Source of the DNA: Corallococcus soli
GTDB taxonomy: Bacteria; Myxococcota; Myxococcia; Myxococcales; Myxococcaceae
NCBI RefSeq assembly: GCF_014930455.1
Contig: NZ_JAAIYO010000006.1
Coordinates: 248,001 to 312,000, forward strand
Reading direction: 5' to 3'
Length of the DNA: 64,000 bases
This document shows positions 8,998 through 33,997 of the stretch, piece after piece. The translations under genes were made by a program, and so were the position numbers. The stretch's first letter is position 1, and every line of letters begins with the position of its first letter. The notes under the pieces were generated by a model, which ran no database searches, was not told the origin of the DNA, and worked only from the letters and a program-made list of their open reading frames with translations.

Positions 8998-10026
8998 ATG
9001 GAAAGCGCCGCCCCCGCCCCACTCCCCCCGTCCGACGCCACTGGCGAGGACCTGCGCGCCGTCGAGGAGCTTGCCCAGGCCCGCAACGCCATCGTCGAGC
9101 AGATTGAAAAGCGCGTCGTCGGCCAGCGAGACGTGGTGGAGCACCTGCTGATTTCGCTCTTCAGCCGCGGCCACTGCCTGTTCGTGGGCGTCCCGGGCCT
9201 CGCGAAGACGCTGCTCATCTCCACGCTGGCGGACGTGCTCAACCTGTCCTTCAACCGCATCCAGTTCACGCCGGACCTGATGCCGTCGGACATCACCGGC
9301 ACGGACATCCTGGAAGAGGACAAGACGACGGGCCGGCGCTCCTTCCGCTTCATGCACGGGCCCCTGTTCGCGAACATCATCCTCGCGGACGAGGTGAACC
9401 GCACGCCGCCCAAGACGCAGGCCGCGCTCCTCCAGGCGATGCAGGAGTACCGCATCACCGCCGGCGGCCGGACCTACCCGCTGGAGCTGCCCTTCCTCGT
9501 CTTCGCCACGCAGAACCCCATCGAGCAGGAGGGCACCTACCCCCTCCCCGAGGCGCAGCTGGACCGCTTCATGTTCCTGGTGGACGTGGGCTACCCCAGC
9601 GCCGAGGAGGAGGTGCAGATCGTCAAGAGCACCACCGCCGGCGCGCCGCCGAAGCTGGAGAAGATCCTCTCCCCGGAGCGCATCCTCGCGCTCCAGGAGC
9701 TGGTGCGCCGCGTGCCGGTGCCGGACCACGTCGTGCGCTACGCGGTGGAGCTGGTGCGCCACACGCGCCCCAAGGAAGCGGGCGCGCCGGACTTCGTGGC
9801 GAAGAACGTGTCCTGGGGCGCGGGCCCCCGCGCGAGCCAGTACCTGGTGCTCGCGGCCAAGGCGCGCGCCATCCTCAACGGCCGCTTCGTGGCCACGGTG
9901 GAGGACGTGCGCGCGCTGGCGCGTCCGGTGCTGCGCCACCGCGTGCTGCCGAACTTCACCGCGGAGAGCGAAGGCATCACGTCCGTGAAGTTGATTGATC
10001 AGCTCCTCACGGTGGTGAAGGGCTAG
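8998..10026 (+). CDS. MoxR-family AAA+ ATPase
   Basis: A 342-residue AAA+ protein. Walker A is GVPGLAKT near residue 62, Walker B ILADEVNR near 127, and sensor 1 [23 protein letters not shown] near 170. MoxR ATPases work with von Willebrand A (VWA) proteins as chaperone-like remodelers of enzymes or envelope complexes. It is the first gene of a moxR-DUF58-BatA operon, separated by 15 bp from the DUF58 gene. The start ATG at 8998 has only a weak AAGAG ahead of it. Length and motif order are typical. Confidence 0.93.
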
Positions 10027-10041
10027 TCCGGCCCACACCCC

Positions 10042-10923
10042 ATGGCGCTGCTCGACGCCCAGACGCTGTCCCGCCTCCAGGGCGTGAAGCTGCGCGCCCG
10101 CGCGGTGATGGAGGGCGTGCTGTCCGGCCTCCACAAGAGCCCGCATCAGGGCCAGAGCGTGGAGTTCGCGGAGCACAAGGAGTACGCCCCCGGCGACGAG
10201 CTGCGCCACCTGGACTGGAAGGCCTACGGCAAGTTCGACAAGTACTACGTCAAGCGCTACGAGCATGAGACGAACCTGCGCTCGGTGATGGTCGTGGATG
10301 CGTCCGCGTCCATGGGCTACCAGAGCGGCGCCCTGTCCAAGCTGGAGGTGGCGAAGACGCTGGCGGGCGCGCTCAGCTACCTGCTGGTGCGCCAGCAGGA
10401 CGCGGCGGGCCTGTCGCTGATGGTGGGCGGGGCGTTCCGGGACGTGCCCCCGCGCGCGTCGGCGGGCCACCTCAACGTGCTGCTGGACGCGCTGGAGCAC
10501 ACGGAGGCCAAGGGCCCCACGGACCTGGGCAGCGCGGCGGACCACCTGGCGGAGGTGCTGCCCCGGCGCTCGACGGTCATCGTGCTGTCGGACCTGCTGG
10601 ATGAACGGCAGGAGGCGCTCAAGCGGGTGCTCTCGCTGCGGCAGCGCAAGAACGACGTGGCGGTGTTCCACCTGGTGGACCCGGCGGAGCTGACGTTCCC
10701 GTTCGATGACCCCACGCTCTTCCTGGACATGGAGGGCGAGGGCCGCATCGAAGTGAACCCGCGCGAAATCAAGCAGAGCTACCTGGAGGAGTTCGGCGCC
10801 TTCCTCGCGGACGTGAAGGCGAAGTGCGCCGAGGCGGACGTGGACTACGAGCTGGTGCGCACGGACGAGCGGCTGGATGAAGTGCTGCTGCGCTTCCTGG
10901 GGCGCCGCGGGAGGCGCAGGTGA
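10042..10923 (+). CDS. DUF58 / VWA-like protein
   Basis: A 293-residue DUF58 protein. The family signature lies at YAPGDELRHLDWKAYGKFDKYYVKRYE (split around residues 52-78), and a VWA-type metal-site motif DxSxS is present at D86-A-S88-A-S90. It is the usual partner of a MoxR ATPase; the pair is widespread but its client is often unknown. The GTG start of the next gene overlaps its TGA stop, so the two are translationally coupled. Predicted cytoplasmic. Confidence 0.92.
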   Translation: MALLDAQTLSRLQGVKLRARAVMEGVLSGLHKSPHQGQSVEFAEHKEYAPGDELRHLDWKAYGKFDKYYVKRYEHETNLRSVMVVDASASMGYQSGALSKLEVAKTLAGALSYLLVRQQDAAGLSLMVGGAFRDVPPRASAGHLNVLLDALEHTEAKGPTDLGSAADHLAEVLPRRSTVIVLSDLLDERQEALKRVLSLRQRKNDVAVFHLVDPAELTFPFDDPTLFLDMEGEGRIEVNPREIKQSYLEEFGAFLADVKAKCAEADVDYELVRTDERLDEVLLRFLGRRGRRR

Positions 10924-13019
10924 CGTTCGGCAACCCGTGGTTCCTGCTGGGCGCGCTGGGCGCGCTCATCCCCGTGCTGGTGCACCTGTTCGACCGCAGG
11001 CGGCCCCGGGCGCATCCGTTCGGGCCCATGGCCTTCGTGCTGCGCAGCCAGAAGCGCACGGCGAGCCGGCTCAAGCTGAAGCGGCTGCTGCTCTACACGC
11101 TGCGCACGCTCATCCTGCTGGCCATCCCGCTGGCGCTGGCGCGGCCGGAGTTCAGCCGCGACGCGCAGGCGGCCACGGTGACGCGCGGGCCGGCGGCCAC
11201 GGCCATCATCCTGGACGCGTCGCTGTCCATGCGCTGGTCGGACGGCACGGCGCTGTTCGAGAAGGGCCGCGACGAGGCGCGCGACGCGCTCAAGGACCTG
11301 CTGCCGGAGGAGCCCGCGACGGTGCTGGTGTGCACGGGCGCGCCGGAGGCACCGCCGCCCCCGGGCTTCGACCGGGCCCGGCTGCGGGCGCTCGTGGACG
11401 AGGCGAAGCCCACCTACGGCACGGCGGACCTGTCGCGCTGCCTGGACCTGGCGGCGCGCGCGCTGGAGGAGAACCCGATGCCGGGCAAGCGCCTGGTGGT
11501 GGTCTCCGACATGACGGCCTCCGGCTTCCGGCTGGAAGCGCCGCCGCCCACGGTGAAGGGCCCCACGGGCGCGCTGGTGAAGCCGGAGGTGGTGCTGCGC
11601 GACGTGGCGGAGGGCCGCGACACCCTGGAAAACCACGCGCTGGTGGACCTGCGGGTGGAGCCCGCGCTCCAGGCCGGGCCGCGCTCGTACCAGTTCACGT
11701 TCACGGTGCGGAACTTCGGCGCGAAGCCGGTGAAGGACCTGGAGGCCGCGGTGCGCGTGGGCGAATCCACGCTGGCCAAGGGCTTCGTGGACGTGCCGGC
11801 GGGGGGCACCACGCAGAAGACGCTGACGGTGCGCTTCCCCCAGGGCGGCACGGTGGTGGGCGCGGTGACGCTGGCGCCGGACGCGCTGGCGGAGGACGAC
11901 CGGCGGCCTTTCGTGCTGCCGGTGCCGCGCGGGCTGAAGGCGCTGGTGGTGAACGGCTCGCCGCACGCGACGCGCTACCGGGATGAGGCCTTCTTCGTGG
12001 ACGCGGCGCTCACGTCGCCGGGCTCGCCGGTGGACGTGGCGGTGCGCGACGCGGAGGTGGGCCTGCGCGAGGACTTCAGCGCGTATGACCTGGTGCTGCT
12101 GCTCAACGCGTCCGCGCCCTCGGAGGACGAGGCGGCGAAGCTCAGGACCTTCGTGGAGAACGGCGGCGGCCTCTTCGTGAGCGTGGGCGACCACGTGAAC
12201 CCGGACACGTACAACCAGCGGCTGGGCGCGCTCCTGCCCCGGCCCCTGCGCCTGGTGCGCACGAGCGCCGAGCGCGAGGACCCCGACGCGGAGACGAAGA
12301 CGGCGAAGCTGGCGCAGGTGCAGGTGGAGCACCCGCTGTTCGCGCCCTTCACGGGCCGGGCGGAGGAGGGCCTCATCGGCGCGCGCTTCTACAAGTACAT
12401 GCTGCTGGAGGCGGACAGCCCGTCCGCGCCGGGGACCAGCCAGGTGCTGGCCACGTACGAGGACGGAGCACCGGCGGTGGCGGTGGCGCGCCGGGGCAAG
12501 GGACGCGTGGCGCTGTTCACCAGCACGGTGGACCGCGACTGGAGCGACTTCGCCATCCGGACCAGCTTCCTGCCGCTGATGCAGCGCTTCGCGGCGTACC
12601 TCACGGGCTCGCTGGAGGAGCGCGAGGAGGTGCGCGTGCGCGTGGGCGAGACGGTGACGCTGCGCCCGGAGGGCACGCAGAAGGTGACCGCGGTGCGCGC
12701 GCCGGACGGCGGCGAGGTGCCGGTGAAGGCCCAGCCGGACGGCTCGTTCGTCGCGGGTCCCACGGTGGAGCCGGGCGTGCACACGGTGCTGGGCGCGGAC
12801 GGCAAGCCCGTGGCCGCGCTGGGCTTCGCCGCGACCCTGGACCCGGCGGAGAGCGACCTGTCCCGGGTGCCGCAGGACACGCTGACTGCCTACTTCGGCG
12901 AGGACACGGTGAAGGCGTCCACCGGGGACGCGGACAAGCCCGCCGTGCCGCTGTGGACGTGGCTCATCCTGGCCGCGTGCCTGGCGTTCTTCTTCGAAGG
13001 CACACTGCTGCGCAAGTAA
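10920..13019 (+). CDS. BatA/VWA membrane protein of the MoxR operon
   Basis: A 699-residue protein starting at GTG 10920, overlapping the preceding TGA. The N-terminal BatA domain (GNPWFLLGALGALIPVLVHLFDRRRP, split over residues 4-29) has one membrane segment; a second follows near residue 65. A VWA-like domain holds ILDASLSM, then come a CARDB-like beta domain (residues about 240-330) and a glutamine-amidotransferase-like fold (VNGSPHATRYRDEAFF, NASAPSEDEAAKLRTFVENGGGLFVSVGDH region). A C-terminal membrane helix ends in RK. This is the periplasm-facing member of aerotolerance-type operons. The operon likely remodels or protects envelope proteins; its client is not evident. Confidence 0.88.
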   Translation: MTFGNPWFLLGALGALIPVLVHLFDRRRPRAHPFGPMAFVLRSQKRTASRLKLKRLLLYTLRTLILLAIPLALARPEFSRDAQAATVTRGPAATAIILDASLSMRWSDGTALFEKGRDEARDALKDLLPEEPATVLVCTGAPEAPPPPGFDRARLRALVDEAKPTYGTADLSRCLDLAARALEENPMPGKRLVVVSDMTASGFRLEAPPPTVKGPTGALVKPEVVLRDVAEGRDTLENHALVDLRVEPALQAGPRSYQFTFTVRNFGAKPVKDLEAAVRVGESTLAKGFVDVPAGGTTQKTLTVRFPQGGTVVGAVTLAPDALAEDDRRPFVLPVPRGLKALVVNGSPHATRYRDEAFFVDAALTSPGSPVDVAVRDAEVGLREDFSAYDLVLLLNASAPSEDEAAKLRTFVENGGGLFVSVGDHVNPDTYNQRLGALLPRPLRLVRTSAEREDPDAETKTAKLAQVQVEHPLFAPFTGRAEEGLIGARFYKYMLLEADSPSAPGTSQVLATYEDGAPAVAVARRGKGRVALFTSTVDRDWSDFAIRTSFLPLMQRFAAYLTGSLEEREEVRVRVGETVTLRPEGTQKVTAVRAPDGGEVPVKAQPDGSFVAGPTVEPGVHTVLGADGKPVAALGFAATLDPAESDLSRVPQDTLTAYFGEDTVKASTGDADKPAVPLWTWLILAACLAFFFEGTLLRK

Positions 13020-28377: not shown

Positions 28378-29145
28378 CTAGAAACGCATGGCCTCCACGG
28401 CGGCCACCATCTTGCCGACGTCGTAGGCATAGAAGCCGGCCGAATTCAGGTTGTTGATCTCCCCGACGTACAGCTCGCCCCCGTGCATGAAGACATCCAG
28501 CGCATAGGCGCGGTCCGGCCCCCAGGTGTCCGCCATGCGCTGGGCGAACGCGTGGACCTCCGGCTCCACCTCCGAGGAAGCCAACACCCGGTCGCCCAGC
28601 TTGTAGAGCGAGCCCGTGATGACCCGGCCGTCCACGACGACCATGCGGTACTCGCGTTGGATGGCCCTGGGCTCGCTGAGCGCCACCCACGTGTCCGCGG
28701 ACACCGTGGCGTACGTGTCGAGCGCGAGGACCTGCTCGCGCCACTTCGCGAACGCCTCCCACGACGTCACCATCCCGGAGAACGACTTGTCATCCAGACA
28801 GGGCCGGATGAAGAAGCGCCCCTCCCGCGCGGGCACGTCCGCGAGCCGGCAGACCGTGGCGTCCGCGTTCAACAGGTGCCGGCCCAGGTGCTTGCGCCAG
28901 AGGCGATAGTCGAACTGGTCGTTGATGAAGGCGCCCGGAGTCCAGCCCTGCGTGAGCGCATGGCGCGTCAGGCTGAACGACCCCATCACGACCACCGGCC
29001 CCGAGAGCTCCAGCGTGGGCTCGACGCCGCCTCCGAAGGGGATGACCTTGACCAGCGTGTGCGGGATGGAGCCATGCGCCAGGACATCCATCAACGTGTG
29101 GAAGCCCTGCTCGTTGAAGAGGTTGTTCTGGACGACCCAGTGCAT
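28378..29145 (-). CDS. R2K-clade ATP-grasp domain protein
   Basis: A 255-residue ATP-grasp protein of the short R2K type. Residues 1-90 form the preATP-grasp half (VVVMGSFSLTRHALTQGWTPG). Later come FFIRPCLDDKSFSGM with the nucleotide-binding Lys, AIQREYRMVVVDGRVITGSLYK (R2K signature), YALDVFMHGGELYVGEINNLNSAGFYAYD (metal-binding D, E and N). R2K enzymes are predicted peptide-bond-forming or protein-modifying ligases. It lies 65 bp after the FAD reductase on the same strand and may be the last gene of the phenolic-lipid operon; that link is only positional. Confidence 0.85.
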   Translation of the reverse strand: MHWVVQNNLFNEQGFHTLMDVLAHGSIPHTLVKVIPFGGGVEPTLELSGPVVVMGSFSLTRHALTQGWTPGAFINDQFDYRLWRKHLGRHLLNADATVCRLADVPAREGRFFIRPCLDDKSFSGMVTSWEAFAKWREQVLALDTYATVSADTWVALSEPRAIQREYRMVVVDGRVITGSLYKLGDRVLASSEVEPEVHAFAQRMADTWGPDRAYALDVFMHGGELYVGEINNLNSAGFYAYDVGKMVAAVEAMRF

Positions 29146-29209: not shown

Positions 29210-30331
29210 TCACGTCACCACGGCGGCGAGGATGCGCTCGAAGAGCCAGGGACTGTGGCCCAGCAGGCGCACCACGGGCCTGCGAAGGCGCGGGCGCCGC
29301 GCGAGCATCAACAGGCCGTGCGTCGTCCAGGAGTACTTGCGGAACACGCGCTGGAAGGTGCGCTCGTAGGGCAGCAGCGTGTCGCGGCCCGCGCCCTTCG
29401 CCAGCGCGTCCGGGAGCAGCGCGCCCAGGGACTCCGCGCAGGCGAAGGCCAGGGTGAGGCCCTCCCCTGTCACCGCGTCCACATAGCCCGCCGCGTCTCC
29501 CACCAGCGCGAAGCGGTCCGCCACCCGCGTCCGGGCCACGCGCGCCAGCGGGCCCGCGCCGCGCACCTGCGAGTCCGGCTCCACGCCCGCGAGCTTCTCC
29601 GCCAGCCTCGGGAAGTGGGCCAGCAACGCCTCGAAGCCCACGCGCTCCGCCACGGTGCCCGCCTCCCACAGGAAGGCGATGCCCACGCGCTCCGCTCCGG
29701 CGGGCGTCACGTACGCCTCGACGCCGGAGGCGAAGTGCACCTCCACGTAGGGCGTCCACGGCACGCAGCGGAAGTGCCGCCGCAGCCCGAAGCGGCGCGG
29801 GCCTTCCCGCACCACGTCCAGGCCCTCCGCGCGGCGCAGCGGCGAAGCCAGTCCGTCCGCCGCCACCAGGAACCGGGCCTGCACCGACCCCGTGGGCGTC
29901 TCCAGCAGCACCCCCTCCTCCGTGCGCTGGTGCGCCACGACCTGCGAGTACTCCCGCAGGTCCACACCCACCTCGCGCGCGCGTGTCACGAGCGCCGTGG
30001 ACAGGGCCAGCCTGCGCACCCCCAGCCCACCGGGGGCCGGCAGCAGGCCTTCCGCCATGGTGCCATCCTCCTGCACGTAGCGGATGCCGACGAAGGGCGA
30101 GCTCTCGCGCCGGTCCAGGTGCGCCAGCGCGCCCAGCCGCTCCAACGCCGCGAGCCCCGAAGGCATCAGGCCCTCACCACAGGCCTTGTCCACGGGCGTG
30201 GAGGAGCGCTCCAGCACCACCGTGTCCAACCCGCGCTGGGCCGCGGCGATGGCCACCGCGAGCCCCGCCGGACCGCCTCCGACCACGACGACGTCGTGGC
30301 GTTTCACCCGCCCCGCCCCATCACGAGTCAT
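29210..30331 (-). CDS. FAD-dependent oxidoreductase (geranylgeranyl-reductase-like), phenolic-lipid operon
   Basis: A 373-residue flavoprotein: Rossmann motif VVGGGPAGLAVAIAAAQRG with VVLER ending the second strand, ACGEGLMPSGL near residue 50, and FALVGDAAGYVDAVTGEGLTLAF near 265 for FAD ribityl binding. This is the geranylgeranyl reductase/halogenase-like group. The ATG start overlaps the fatty acyl-AMP ligase gene end by 11 bp. In Streptomyces srs operons an FAD hydroxylase acts on alkylresorcinol methyl ethers; a similar oxidation or reduction of the lipid product is inferred here. Confidence 0.85.
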   Translation of the reverse strand: MTRDGAGRVKRHDVVVVGGGPAGLAVAIAAAQRGLDTVVLERSSTPVDKACGEGLMPSGLAALERLGALAHLDRRESSPFVGIRYVQEDGTMAEGLLPAPGGLGVRRLALSTALVTRAREVGVDLREYSQVVAHQRTEEGVLLETPTGSVQARFLVAADGLASPLRRAEGLDVVREGPRRFGLRRHFRCVPWTPYVEVHFASGVEAYVTPAGAERVGIAFLWEAGTVAERVGFEALLAHFPRLAEKLAGVEPDSQVRGAGPLARVARTRVADRFALVGDAAGYVDAVTGEGLTLAFACAESLGALLPDALAKGAGRDTLLPYERTFQRVFRKYSWTTHGLLMLARRPRLRRPVVRLLGHSPWLFERILAAVVT

Positions 30332-32075
30332 GCTCGGCGCGCACCATCGCCAGCGCGCTCTTCGCCATCTCCACCGCCATCCCCACCGCGCCCATCTTCT
30401 TCGGCGCCGTCAGCTCGCCGGTCAGATAGCGCCGCAGCGCTTCACCCCGGCGCAGCTTGCCGCTGGACGTGCGAGGCAGCGTGCCCGGCTCCAGGATGCG
30501 CACCGTGTGCGGCTGCACGCCCGTCGCCGCCACCACCGCGGAGCGGATGTCCGCCTCCACCGACGCCTCATTGCCTGGCGCCGCGCGCTCCGCGAGGATC
30601 AACAGCGCTTCGTCCTGACTGTCCTCGGGCGTGAAGCCCAGCGCCACCGCGCAGCCCGTGCGCACGCCCTCCACCGCGCCCAGCGGCTCCTCGAAGGCCT
30701 GCGGCGCGTGGTTCGCGCCCCGGATGATGACCAGGTCCTTCGCGCGGCCCGTCAGGTACAGCTCCCCGTCCACGCCGAAGCCCAGGTCCCCCGTGTCCAA
30801 CCAGCCGTCGCCCGTGAGCGCGCGCTCCGTCGCCTCCGCGTCCTCGAAGTAGCCGCGCATCACCGACGGTCCCTTCGCGAACACGCGCCCCACCCTGCGC
30901 TCCGGCAGCTCCGCGCCGTCCTCGCCGCGCACCTGGACCTCGAAGCCCGCGACCGGCGCGCCCACGCTCACCAGCGTCCGCGTCCCTTCGCGCGCCAGTC
31001 CTTCGCGCGCGAGCACGTTCGGCTCCACGCCCAGCTCGCGCGGCCCTCGTCCCGCCGGAGGGAACGTCACCGCCAGGGACGCCTCGGACAAGCCATACAC
31101 CGGCCGCAGCGCCCGCGCGGAGAAGCCCCACTTCTCGAACCGCTCCGCGAACCGGCGCAGCGTGTCCGCGGACACCGGCTCCGCGCCGTTGAGCGCGTGG
31201 TGCCACCCGGACAGGTCCACGCCCTGGAGCTCCGCGTCCTTCACGCGCTTCAGACACAGCCCGTAGGCGAAGTTCGGCGCCGGGGACACGAAGCCCCGGT
31301 GCCGCGACAGCGCCCGCAGCCACAGCGCCGGCTTCACCAGGAACGTCTCCGGCGGAATCAGCACCAGGCTGCCCGGGTAATACAGCGCGGAGAGCACACA
31401 GCCGATGAGCCCCATGTCGTGGTACAGCGGCAGCCAGCTCACGCCCACCGGCGTCACGCCGGCCGCCACCGGCATCGCCGCCTCCAGCGCCGCCACCTGC
31501 GCCACGAGCGCCCCGTGCGTCAGCGCCACCGGCTTCGGCGCCACCGTGGAGCCGGACGAGAACTGGATGAGCCCCAGCGCCTCGGGCCCCACCTCCACCT
31601 CCAGGTCCTCGTCGCCGTGCATCACCGCGTCCACCGTGTGGCAGCCCAGCCGGGGCCGCGCGGCCTCCACGCTGGGGCCCAGCAGCAGCCGCACGCGCGT
31701 GTCCGTCAGCACCGCGACCACGCCCGTCACCTGGAGCATGCGCGCCGTCGCCCGGTGGTACTCGTCCAGCCGTCCCAGCCGCACCGGCGGATACAGGGGC
31801 ACCGGCACCGCGCCCGCCAGCAGCGTGCCGAAGTAGGCATCCATGAACGCGGGCGACGTGGGCAGCAAGAGCGCCACCCGCTCCCCCGGCTTCACGCCCA
31901 GCCTCGCGAGCCCCGCCGCCGCCCGCTTCGCGCGCCGGTAGACGTGGGCCCACGGCAGGGACGTCTCGCGCTCGGAGGCGTCCACGAACACAAGCCCCAG
32001 CGACGTGTGCGACGTCGCCCTCAACATCGCGTTCACCGTGGCGTGCTTCAGCGCGGGCAGGGGCGGTCCTTTCAC
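30321..32075 (-). CDS. Fatty acyl-AMP ligase (AMP-dependent synthetase)
   Basis: A 584-residue adenylating enzyme of FAAL length. Motifs: AKRAAAGLARLGVKPGERVALLLP near residue 35-58, the P-loop-like IQFSSGSTVAPKPVALTHGAL near 175, YHDMGLIG near 225 and the FAAL-type LDTGDLGFGVDGELYLTGRAKDLVIIRGAN (split, about 415-445). FAALs load fatty acyl-AMP onto acyl carrier protein rather than CoA, fitting the adjacent ACP. GTG 32075 overlaps the ACP stop by 4 bp. It likely supplies starter fatty acids to the type III PKS. Confidence 0.9.
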   Translation of the reverse strand: MKGPPLPALKHATVNAMLRATSHTSLGLVFVDASERETSLPWAHVYRRAKRAAAGLARLGVKPGERVALLLPTSPAFMDAYFGTLLAGAVPVPLYPPVRLGRLDEYHRATARMLQVTGVVAVLTDTRVRLLLGPSVEAARPRLGCHTVDAVMHGDEDLEVEVGPEALGLIQFSSGSTVAPKPVALTHGALVAQVAALEAAMPVAAGVTPVGVSWLPLYHDMGLIGCVLSALYYPGSLVLIPPETFLVKPALWLRALSRHRGFVSPAPNFAYGLCLKRVKDAELQGVDLSGWHHALNGAEPVSADTLRRFAERFEKWGFSARALRPVYGLSEASLAVTFPPAGRGPRELGVEPNVLAREGLAREGTRTLVSVGAPVAGFEVQVRGEDGAELPERRVGRVFAKGPSVMRGYFEDAEATERALTGDGWLDTGDLGFGVDGELYLTGRAKDLVIIRGANHAPQAFEEPLGAVEGVRTGCAVALGFTPEDSQDEALLILAERAAPGNEASVEADIRSAVVAATGVQPHTVRILEPGTLPRTSSGKLRRGEALRRYLTGELTAPKKMGAVGMAVEMAKSALAMVRAEHDS

Positions 32076-32347
32076 GGCTGGGCCCCCACTTCCGCGTGCG
32101 ATTCGGCGACCCGCATGGCCACCAGCCGCGACAGGTCCTCCACCGTGCGCACGCCCTGCGCGTCCTCCTCCGACAGCATCACCCGGAAGCGGTTCTCCAA
32201 CCCCACCGCCAGCACCGTCAGCCCCAGGCTGTCCAGTTGCAGGTCGCGCAACAGGTCGTGCGAGGGCTCCACCACGCCTTCGAACTCCAGCTCCTCGCGG
32301 GCGATGCGGCGGATCTCCGTCATCACCTCCGTCACGGTGTCAGCCAC
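32072..32347 (-). CDS. Acyl carrier protein
   Basis: A 91-residue acidic, helical carrier. The phosphopantetheine site is the Ser in LQLDSLGLTVL, residue about 40. Start is GTG 32347, overlapping the preceding methyltransferase gene by 8 bp; it overlaps the FAAL gene by 4 bp. In the operon it probably carries the fatty acyl group activated by the ligase to the type III PKS, an ACP-dependent priming route. A stand-alone type III PKS needs only CoA substrates, so the ACP is notable. Confidence 0.9.
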   Translation of the reverse strand: MADTVTEVMTEIRRIAREELEFEGVVEPSHDLLRDLQLDSLGLTVLAVGLENRFRVMLSEEDAQGVRTVEDLSRLVAMRVAESHAEVGAQP

Positions 32348-32912
32348 GGCGAACCTCCGGAATGAAGCGGGGACGGTGGGCGAACGCCTCGGAATACATC
32401 GCGCCGAGCGCCGCCTCCTCCGCGCGGATGCGCACGAAGAGCAGGGCCGCGTTGCCCACCGTGAAGACCACCGCCGTCACCCACGCCCCGTGGATGAGCG
32501 GCACACACAACAGCTCCAGCACCACCGCCACGTAGTTCGGATGCCGGAGGAACCGGTACGGCCCGCCCGTCACCGGCGCCAGCCCCGGAACCACGATGAT
32601 GCGTGAGTTCCACCGGTCGCCCAGCGTCCCGATGGCCCAGTACCTCAAGCCCTGCGCCACCACCGCGCCCACCAGCGCCACCACGCTCCACGTGCCCCAG
32701 AAGGGCCGGTGCAGGCCGAACACCTCCGCCACGCACGCCACCAGGAAGAGCGTGTGGAACACCACCATGAAGCGGTAGTGCCCCTGCCCCGTCTCCACCC
32801 CGCCGCGTTCGAAGGCCCGCGCCGCGTTGCGTTTGGAGAGCACCAGCTCCAGCAGCCGCTCCGCGATGAGCAGCACCATGAAGCCCGCGAACAGCATCTG
32901 GGTGCCGGTCAC
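32340..32912 (-). CDS. Isoprenylcysteine-carboxyl-methyltransferase-family membrane methyltransferase (SrsB-like)
   Basis: A 190-residue integral membrane protein with about five helices. C-terminal signature: GLAPVTGGPYRFLRHPNYVAVVLELL followed by RIRAEEAALG, the SAM-binding region of ICMT/PEMT families. GTG 32912 overlaps the PKS stop (GTGA), so coupled translation is expected; an in-frame ATG at 32897 is an alternative. In srs-type operons the homologous gene methylates alkylresorcinols to methyl ethers, and that is the inferred role here. Confidence 0.87.
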   Translation of the reverse strand: MTGTQMLFAGFMVLLIAERLLELVLSKRNAARAFERGGVETGQGHYRFMVVFHTLFLVACVAEVFGLHRPFWGTWSVVALVGAVVAQGLRYWAIGTLGDRWNSRIIVVPGLAPVTGGPYRFLRHPNYVAVVLELLCVPLIHGAWVTAVVFTVGNAALLFVRIRAEEAALGAMYSEAFAHRPRFIPEVRRG

Positions 32913-33997
32913 CAGCGCACCAGGACCATCTCCGCGCAGAAGCCCGGCCCCATCGCCATCACCACGCCCCATTCACCCGGCTTCGCGCCCGCCTCCTCCA
33001 GCGTCTCGCCCAGCACGAAGAGCACCGACGCGCTGGACAGGTTGCCCACCTGGCGCAGCGACTTCCAGGAACGCTCCAGCGCGCCCGCCTCCAGCTCCAG
33101 CGCGGACTCGAAGCCCTCCAGCACCTTGGGCCCTCCGGTGTGCGCCACCCAGTGCCGCACGTCCTTGCGGGTGAGGCCGTGCTCGGCGAGGAAGCCGTCC
33201 ACGTTGCCGCGGATGTGGTCCTTCACGAGCTGCGGCACCTTGGCGGACAGCACCACCTTGAAGCCCGTATCCACCACGTCCCAGCCCATCACCCGTTCGG
33301 TGTCCGGATAGAACACGGACCGCGAGCCCACCACGCGAGGCCCCGTCGCGCCGGGAGCCTCCGCGCCCCGCAGCACCACGCACGCCGCGCCGTCGCCGAA
33401 GAGGCCGGAGGCGATGATGTTGGGGATGGACAGGTCCTCGCGCTGCAACGTCAGCGAGCACAGCTCCGCGGCGATGAGCAGCGCGGTCTGCTTCGGGAAC
33501 GCGCGCAGGTAGTCCGACGCCCGGGCCAGTCCGGCGGCGCCCGCCACGCAGCCCAGGCCGAAGATGGGCGTGCGCTTCACGTCCTCGCGAAAGCCCATCC
33601 GGTTGACCAACCGCGCGTCCACGCTGGGGGTGGCGATGCCCGTCACCGTGACGAAGAAGACATGGTCCACGTCCTTCGGCGTCAGGCCCGCGCGTTCCAG
33701 GGCCTGACGCGCCACGTTCTCCGACAGCTCCGTGGCTACGCGGATCCACGCGTCGTTGCGCTGCTGGAAGGTCGCGAGCGCCGGGTACTCCGCCAGCGGC
33801 AGCGCCAGATGCCGGCCGCCGACCTGGACGTTGCGGTGCAGGTCCTCCAGACGCTCCAGGTTGAAGTGCTTCGTCGCCCACAGGTCGCGCAGCGCCGCGA
33901 TGAGCTGTTCCTGGCTGGCGTAGTGCGGCGGAAGCGCGCGGCCCACCGCGCTCAAGGAGGGCGAAGGCACGGTGTCGTGACGGGTCGAGCTGAGCAT
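32909..33997 (-). CDS. Type III polyketide synthase (chalcone/stilbene-synthase family, alkylresorcinol type)
   Basis: A 362-residue thiolase-fold enzyme. The catalytic Cys is in FGLGCVAGAAGLA near residue 152, His in VAHTGGPKVL near 295 and Asn in VGNLSSASVLF near 328, the complete Cys-His-Asn triad. Malonyl-CoA extension of a fatty starter gives alkylresorcinols or alkylpyrones. ATG 33997 has AGGGA about 7 bp upstream; longer in-frame extensions look non-coding. It is the first gene of a five-gene overlapping operon whose remaining members (methyltransferase, ACP, FAAL, FAD oxidoreductase) fit phenolic-lipid tailoring and starter supply. Confidence 0.93.
   Translation of the reverse strand: MLSSTRHDTVPSPSLSAVGRALPPHYASQEQLIAALRDLWATKHFNLERLEDLHRNVQVGGRHLALPLAEYPALATFQQRNDAWIRVATELSENVARQALERAGLTPKDVDHVFFVTVTGIATPSVDARLVNRMGFREDVKRTPIFGLGCVAGAAGLARASDYLRAFPKQTALLIAAELCSLTLQREDLSIPNIIASGLFGDGAACVVLRGAEAPGATGPRVVGSRSVFYPDTERVMGWDVVDTGFKVVLSAKVPQLVKDHIRGNVDGFLAEHGLTRKDVRHWVAHTGGPKVLEGFESALELEAGALERSWKSLRQVGNLSSASVLFVLGETLEEAGAKPGEWGVVMAMGPGFCAEMVLVRW

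Follow-up and report, generated by a model that had tools for sequence, protein, structure and literature searches.

Five genes on the minus strand, at positions 29210-33997 of the 64,000-nucleotide stretch of DNA analysed here (the window), probably represent, in Corallococcus, the orthologue of the ftp operon described from Myxococcus xanthus and, judged from sequence similarity, would make alkylresorcylic acid-derived phenolic lipids or quinones; we put the probability of this reading at roughly 0.8. Both the operon and its chemistry are already known from M. xanthus and are ordinary for myxobacteria, so that the locus, which shows a published myxobacterial pathway retained in Corallococcus together with a dedicated pair for fatty-acid priming, is of little importance by itself.

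Gene content and arrangement

The genes follow one another in this order (Pfam matches in brackets):

32909..33997, minus strand: type III polyketide synthase (PKS), FtpA-like (Chal_sti_synt_N, 4.5e-22; Chal_sti_synt_C, 5.1e-23)
32340..32912, minus strand: ICMT-type methyltransferase (ICMT, 7.9e-27)
32072..32347, minus strand: acyl carrier protein (ACP) with a DSL phosphopantetheine site, LQLDSLGL (PP-binding, 1.9e-8)
30321..32075, minus strand: fatty acyl-AMP ligase, FAAL (AMP-binding, 2e-58)
29210..30331, minus strand: FAD-dependent oxidoreductase/monooxygenase with GxGxxG near the N-terminus (FAD_binding_3, 7.7e-22)

Start codons were inferred by taking the nearest one, which is GTG for the methyltransferase (whose open frame extends to 32972), the ACP and the FAAL. 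On this basis, the PKS stop at 32909 and the methyltransferase GTG at 32912 overlap by 4 bp, the methyltransferase stop at 32340 and the ACP GTG at 32347 by 8 bp, the ACP stop at 32072 and the FAAL GTG at 32075 by 4 bp, and the FAAL stop at 30321 and the ATG of the FAD enzyme at 30331 by 11 bp, confirming in coordinates, Pfam families and overlaps the five genes overlapping by 4-11 bp that an earlier note had described. The arrangement is not a matter of chance, because the same order recurs in M. xanthus and many relatives. None of the five proteins reaches the cut-off of an NCBIfam model; the best models are DpgA for the PKS (198 bits, cut-off 425) and a geranylgeranyl reductase family for the FAD enzyme (127 bits, cut-off 158.8). 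A scan for promoters and terminators returned no promoter-like site (0.1 expected) and two terminator-like ones (1.7 expected).

Just downstream of the operon, at 28378-29145, lies an R2K-clade ATP-grasp gene, which is matched in some Corallococcus loci and unmatched in others, with no match in L035, L037, L038 and L041, where the AIG2-like gene does match; the AIG2-like match in the window is itself below the Pfam cut-off. The R2K ATP-grasp, AIG2-like and endonuclease genes downstream were rejected as operon members, because all three are matched only among L033-L042, that is, nine loci titled Corallococcus and one Myxococcaceae MAG within their branch, of which L036 ends too early.

Relation to the M. 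xanthus ftp operon and the predicted pathway

In M. xanthus AM003 (locus L095), all five genes recur with order and orientation unchanged and with similar spacing, except between FAAL and FAD enzyme, whose frames overlap by 11 bp in Corallococcus and are separated by about 70 bp in L095. Identity between the two loci amounts to 82% for the PKS, 81% for the methyltransferase, 81% over 75 aa for the ACP, 78% for the FAAL and 72% for the FAD enzyme, and a PF00195 search of the AM003 genome found no match other than its PKS. The make-up of the published ftp operon is taken from citing papers together with L095, and orthology with FtpA is judged through the AM003 PKS. The title of Hayashi et al. 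2011 and papers citing it connect FtpA and a fatty acyl-AMP ligase of M. xanthus with alkylresorcylic acid; in passages of later papers, FtpA is described as taking malonyl- and methylmalonyl-CoA and yielding methylated phenolic lipids (PMC5916927), M. xanthus as oxidising the FtpA product to alkylquinones (PMC10896814), and a cluster with stilbene synthase, methyltransferase, AMP-dependent synthetase and monooxygenase as aligning with the alkylresorcylic acid cluster of M. xanthus (PMC5006271). As this M. xanthus work on FtpA and its ligase had already been published, a reading of the locus as a new system was dropped, and the mechanism envisaged in the earlier note, phenolic-lipid synthesis primed by a FAAL and an ACP of the operon itself, is largely right but known.

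By analogy with these relatives, the products of the operon are very probably phenolic lipids or quinones with long chains. The FAAL would convert a long-chain fatty acid to its acyl-AMP and load it onto the operon ACP, from which the type III PKS would accept the acyl group and extend it with malonyl- and perhaps methylmalonyl-CoA to an alkylresorcylic acid. The ICMT-type enzyme would then methylate this acid, probably with decarboxylation like SrsB, a decarboxylating methyltransferase by the title of its paper, and the FAD enzyme would hydroxylate the ring to give an alkyl-hydroquinone or -quinone. Each of these chemical steps is carried over from published work on relatives, onto a locus whose gene content, gene order, similarity to M. 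xanthus and active-site residues are established directly.

When the ligase is matched to solved structures, FAALs and FadD/PKS/NRPS loading proteins fill the top 18 places (284 to 157 bits), and the first CoA ligase, a 4-coumarate ligase, follows at 116 bits; its best NCBIfam model is the fatty acyl-AMP ligase PRK09192 (445 bits, cut-off 600). By sequence comparison, the operon ligase thus resembles FAALs more than acyl-CoA ligases. FAAL hallmarks given in a passage of PMC8460268 are a FAAL-specific insertion and helix and a blocked CoA pocket, and the same source describes an M. xanthus FAAL-ACP pair, without naming it there, that tethers a fatty acid to the ACP in vitro.

Product class

In the PKS, Cys150, His286 and Asn319 stand where this family has its Cys-His-Asn triad, and Trp239 lies within the motif MGWDV. 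In 75 of the 80 relatives' PKSs the MGWD motif is found as well, the remaining five falling outside the search pattern. CylI, presumably an alkylresorcinol-former and the second-best distinct protein among the PDB matches of the operon PKS, has Leu at the position of Trp239 in the match alignment. The cylindrocyclophane pathway, as we understand it, likewise unites a FAAL (CylA), an ACP (CylB) and a type III PKS (CylI), but, unlike the Corallococcus operon, places type I PKS modules between FAAL/ACP and CylI. In the alignment of another PDB match, with positions counted by hand, Trp239 stands opposite Trp230 of PKS11, a position that PMC5916927 ties, in the passage concerned, to resorcinol formation and at which FtpA retains the Trp. 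Since PKS11 has this Trp, yet the title of its structure paper names alkylpyrones, and since CylI has Leu, Trp239 is no decisive marker of a resorcinol product.

The papers themselves disagree on whether the myxobacterial product is a resorcinol or a pyrone. It is conceivable, if unlikely, that the main product in vivo is an alkylpyrone which the methyltransferase and the FAD enzyme decorate, with resorcinols as minor products. PMC12766979 classes the conserved myxobacterial type III PKS cluster, 20-63% similar to the alkylpyrone cluster BGC0001831, as alkylpyrone and calls alkylpyrones M. xanthus products, and in PMC9231227 a type III PKS cluster of strain MCy9487 is described as giving alkylpyrones when expressed in M. 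xanthus. A PKS-ACP-FAAL set with no match to the methyltransferase or the FAD enzyme, as in L055 and L056, would suit an alkylpyrone product too. Against it stand the link of the M. xanthus enzyme to alkylresorcylic acid in the title of Hayashi et al. 2011 and in citing papers, and the methyltransferase and FAD enzyme, which adjoin ACP and FAAL at 31 of the 55 scored loci. A further point against it concerns the pentapeptide-repeat gene by which the MCy9487 cluster was chosen: crude scans without positive control found none in the window or in 31 loci with a looser pattern, and none in the window or the 80 loci with a strict one.

The resorcylic acid-derived reading can be extended to a polyketide quinone that would provide respiration with an alternative electron carrier, a role reported for mycobacteria and Streptomyces. 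The PKS-methyltransferase-FAD order common to actinobacterial loci fits this idea, as do the polyketide quinones that PMC9927152, in the passage concerned, derives from a three-gene operon; for myxobacteria, however, a respiratory role is an argument from analogy only, and we regard the extension as possible but doubtful.

Distribution and history of the operon

Peptide patterns from the operon query found 107 relatives, the best 80 of which were used, a set that leans to near relatives because the query's own patterns chose it. Partner genes were scored by tblastn with the operon proteins (E <= 1e-4) within 6 kb downstream, limits by which diverged partners may be missed. When 25 of the 80 loci, in which the sequence downstream falls short of 5 kb, are left aside, methyltransferase, ACP, FAAL and FAD enzyme are all present in 31 of the remaining 55, methyltransferase and FAD enzyme alone in nine, none of the four partners in six, and methyltransferase, FAAL and FAD enzyme with no ACP match in four; ACP and FAAL occur in two, methyltransferase, ACP and FAAL in one, the methyltransferase only in one and the FAD enzyme only in one. 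Where no ACP was matched, L107 and L110 have an ACP-like frame in the expected place, and a motif scan found no ACP in L076 and L086. The full set is frequent in myxobacteria and also occurs in loci titled Acidobacteria. The part of the earlier interpretation that does not stand is thus its rarity, since the full set, held to be less common, is complete in most scored near relatives and an alkylresorcinol cluster is listed as core in Corallococcus: PMC6306037 places such a cluster among those shared by at least 23 of the 24 genomes in a Corallococcus study. We infer that this core cluster is the operon described here, because the source genome has a single strong type III PKS match.

That match, the operon PKS, came from a PF00195 search, in which a second match in the source genome (C2, 26.5 bits) was not accepted as a type III PKS; weak matches were discounted because 5 of 14 control genomes, E. 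coli included, match too. Among the best 80 of 107 relatives, the nearest named one by PKS is Corallococcus terminator CA054A (98-99%), which places the window in Corallococcus. At E <= 1e-30, the PKS is matched in 16 of the 16 same-genus genomes listed and in 130 of 195 Myxococcota genomes, where the weaker matches (about 28-42% identity) are taken as putative other type III PKSs.

In line with the parallel to srsABC drawn in the earlier note, the PKS, methyltransferase and FAD enzyme follow the same order in the Streptomyces loci L106, L108 and L111, from which we judge Streptomyces srsABC and mycobacterial pkqABC; these loci differ from the Corallococcus operon in that no ACP or FAAL is matched by tblastn within 6 kb downstream, as also in the Kineosporia loci. 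The hidABC-type operons of cyanobacteria and planctomycetes share methyltransferase, oxidoreductase and type III PKS and are set apart by their description in a passage of PMC10896814, where the PKS comes last and no FAAL or ACP is described.

In a tree of 81 PKSs (80 relatives and the Corallococcus operon), those of Myxococcus, Pyxidicoccus, Citreicoccus, Hyalangium and Corallococcus fall into one 24-row branch (98/92). FAAL is present in 55 rows, the Corallococcus operon included, and absent from 17, the other nine being unscored because less than 5 kb follows their PKS; across the 72 labelled rows, at least five changes of FAAL presence are needed. Of the nine rows titled actinobacteria, eight show no FAAL match (seven are scored as without FAAL, L103 as unknown) and form one clade (100/100); MAG L084, the only other one, carries the full set and is placed elsewhere, among acidobacterial rows. 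The eight nest in a 14-row branch (98/92) with the FAAL-bearing L076 and L086, though the joining forks are weak. Because they nest in a tree with FAAL-bearing operons in several deep branches, one may tentatively ask whether the ACP-FAAL pair is the older state and the three-gene srs/pkq-like form derived from it by loss; as the root is a midpoint set for drawing, the tree does not tell FAAL gain from loss.

Several loci depart from the common layout. In L055 (Hyalangium versicolor; 10001-11200 onward) and L056 (a Myxococcaceae MAG), ACP and FAAL come immediately after the PKS, and tblastn matches neither a methyltransferase nor an FAD enzyme within 6 kb downstream, which makes these loci a natural shorter version of the operon. 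In L044 and L045 the FAD gene starts farther from the FAAL than is usual among the relatives, by several hundred bases, and the gap may accommodate a small additional gene or a spacer. L048, whose record bears the title Comamonas sp. KCTC 72670, has an ftp-like operon that groups with Myxococcus, and this title is probably a mislabel. Finally, seven genomes (G061, G062, G064, G090, G091, G092 and G093) carry a second type III PKS on the opposite strand, about 6-17 kb from the ftpA-like gene and 30-32% identical to the operon PKS; if the gene duplication in Archangium mentioned in PMC12766979 refers to this pair, the second gene is no recent copy.
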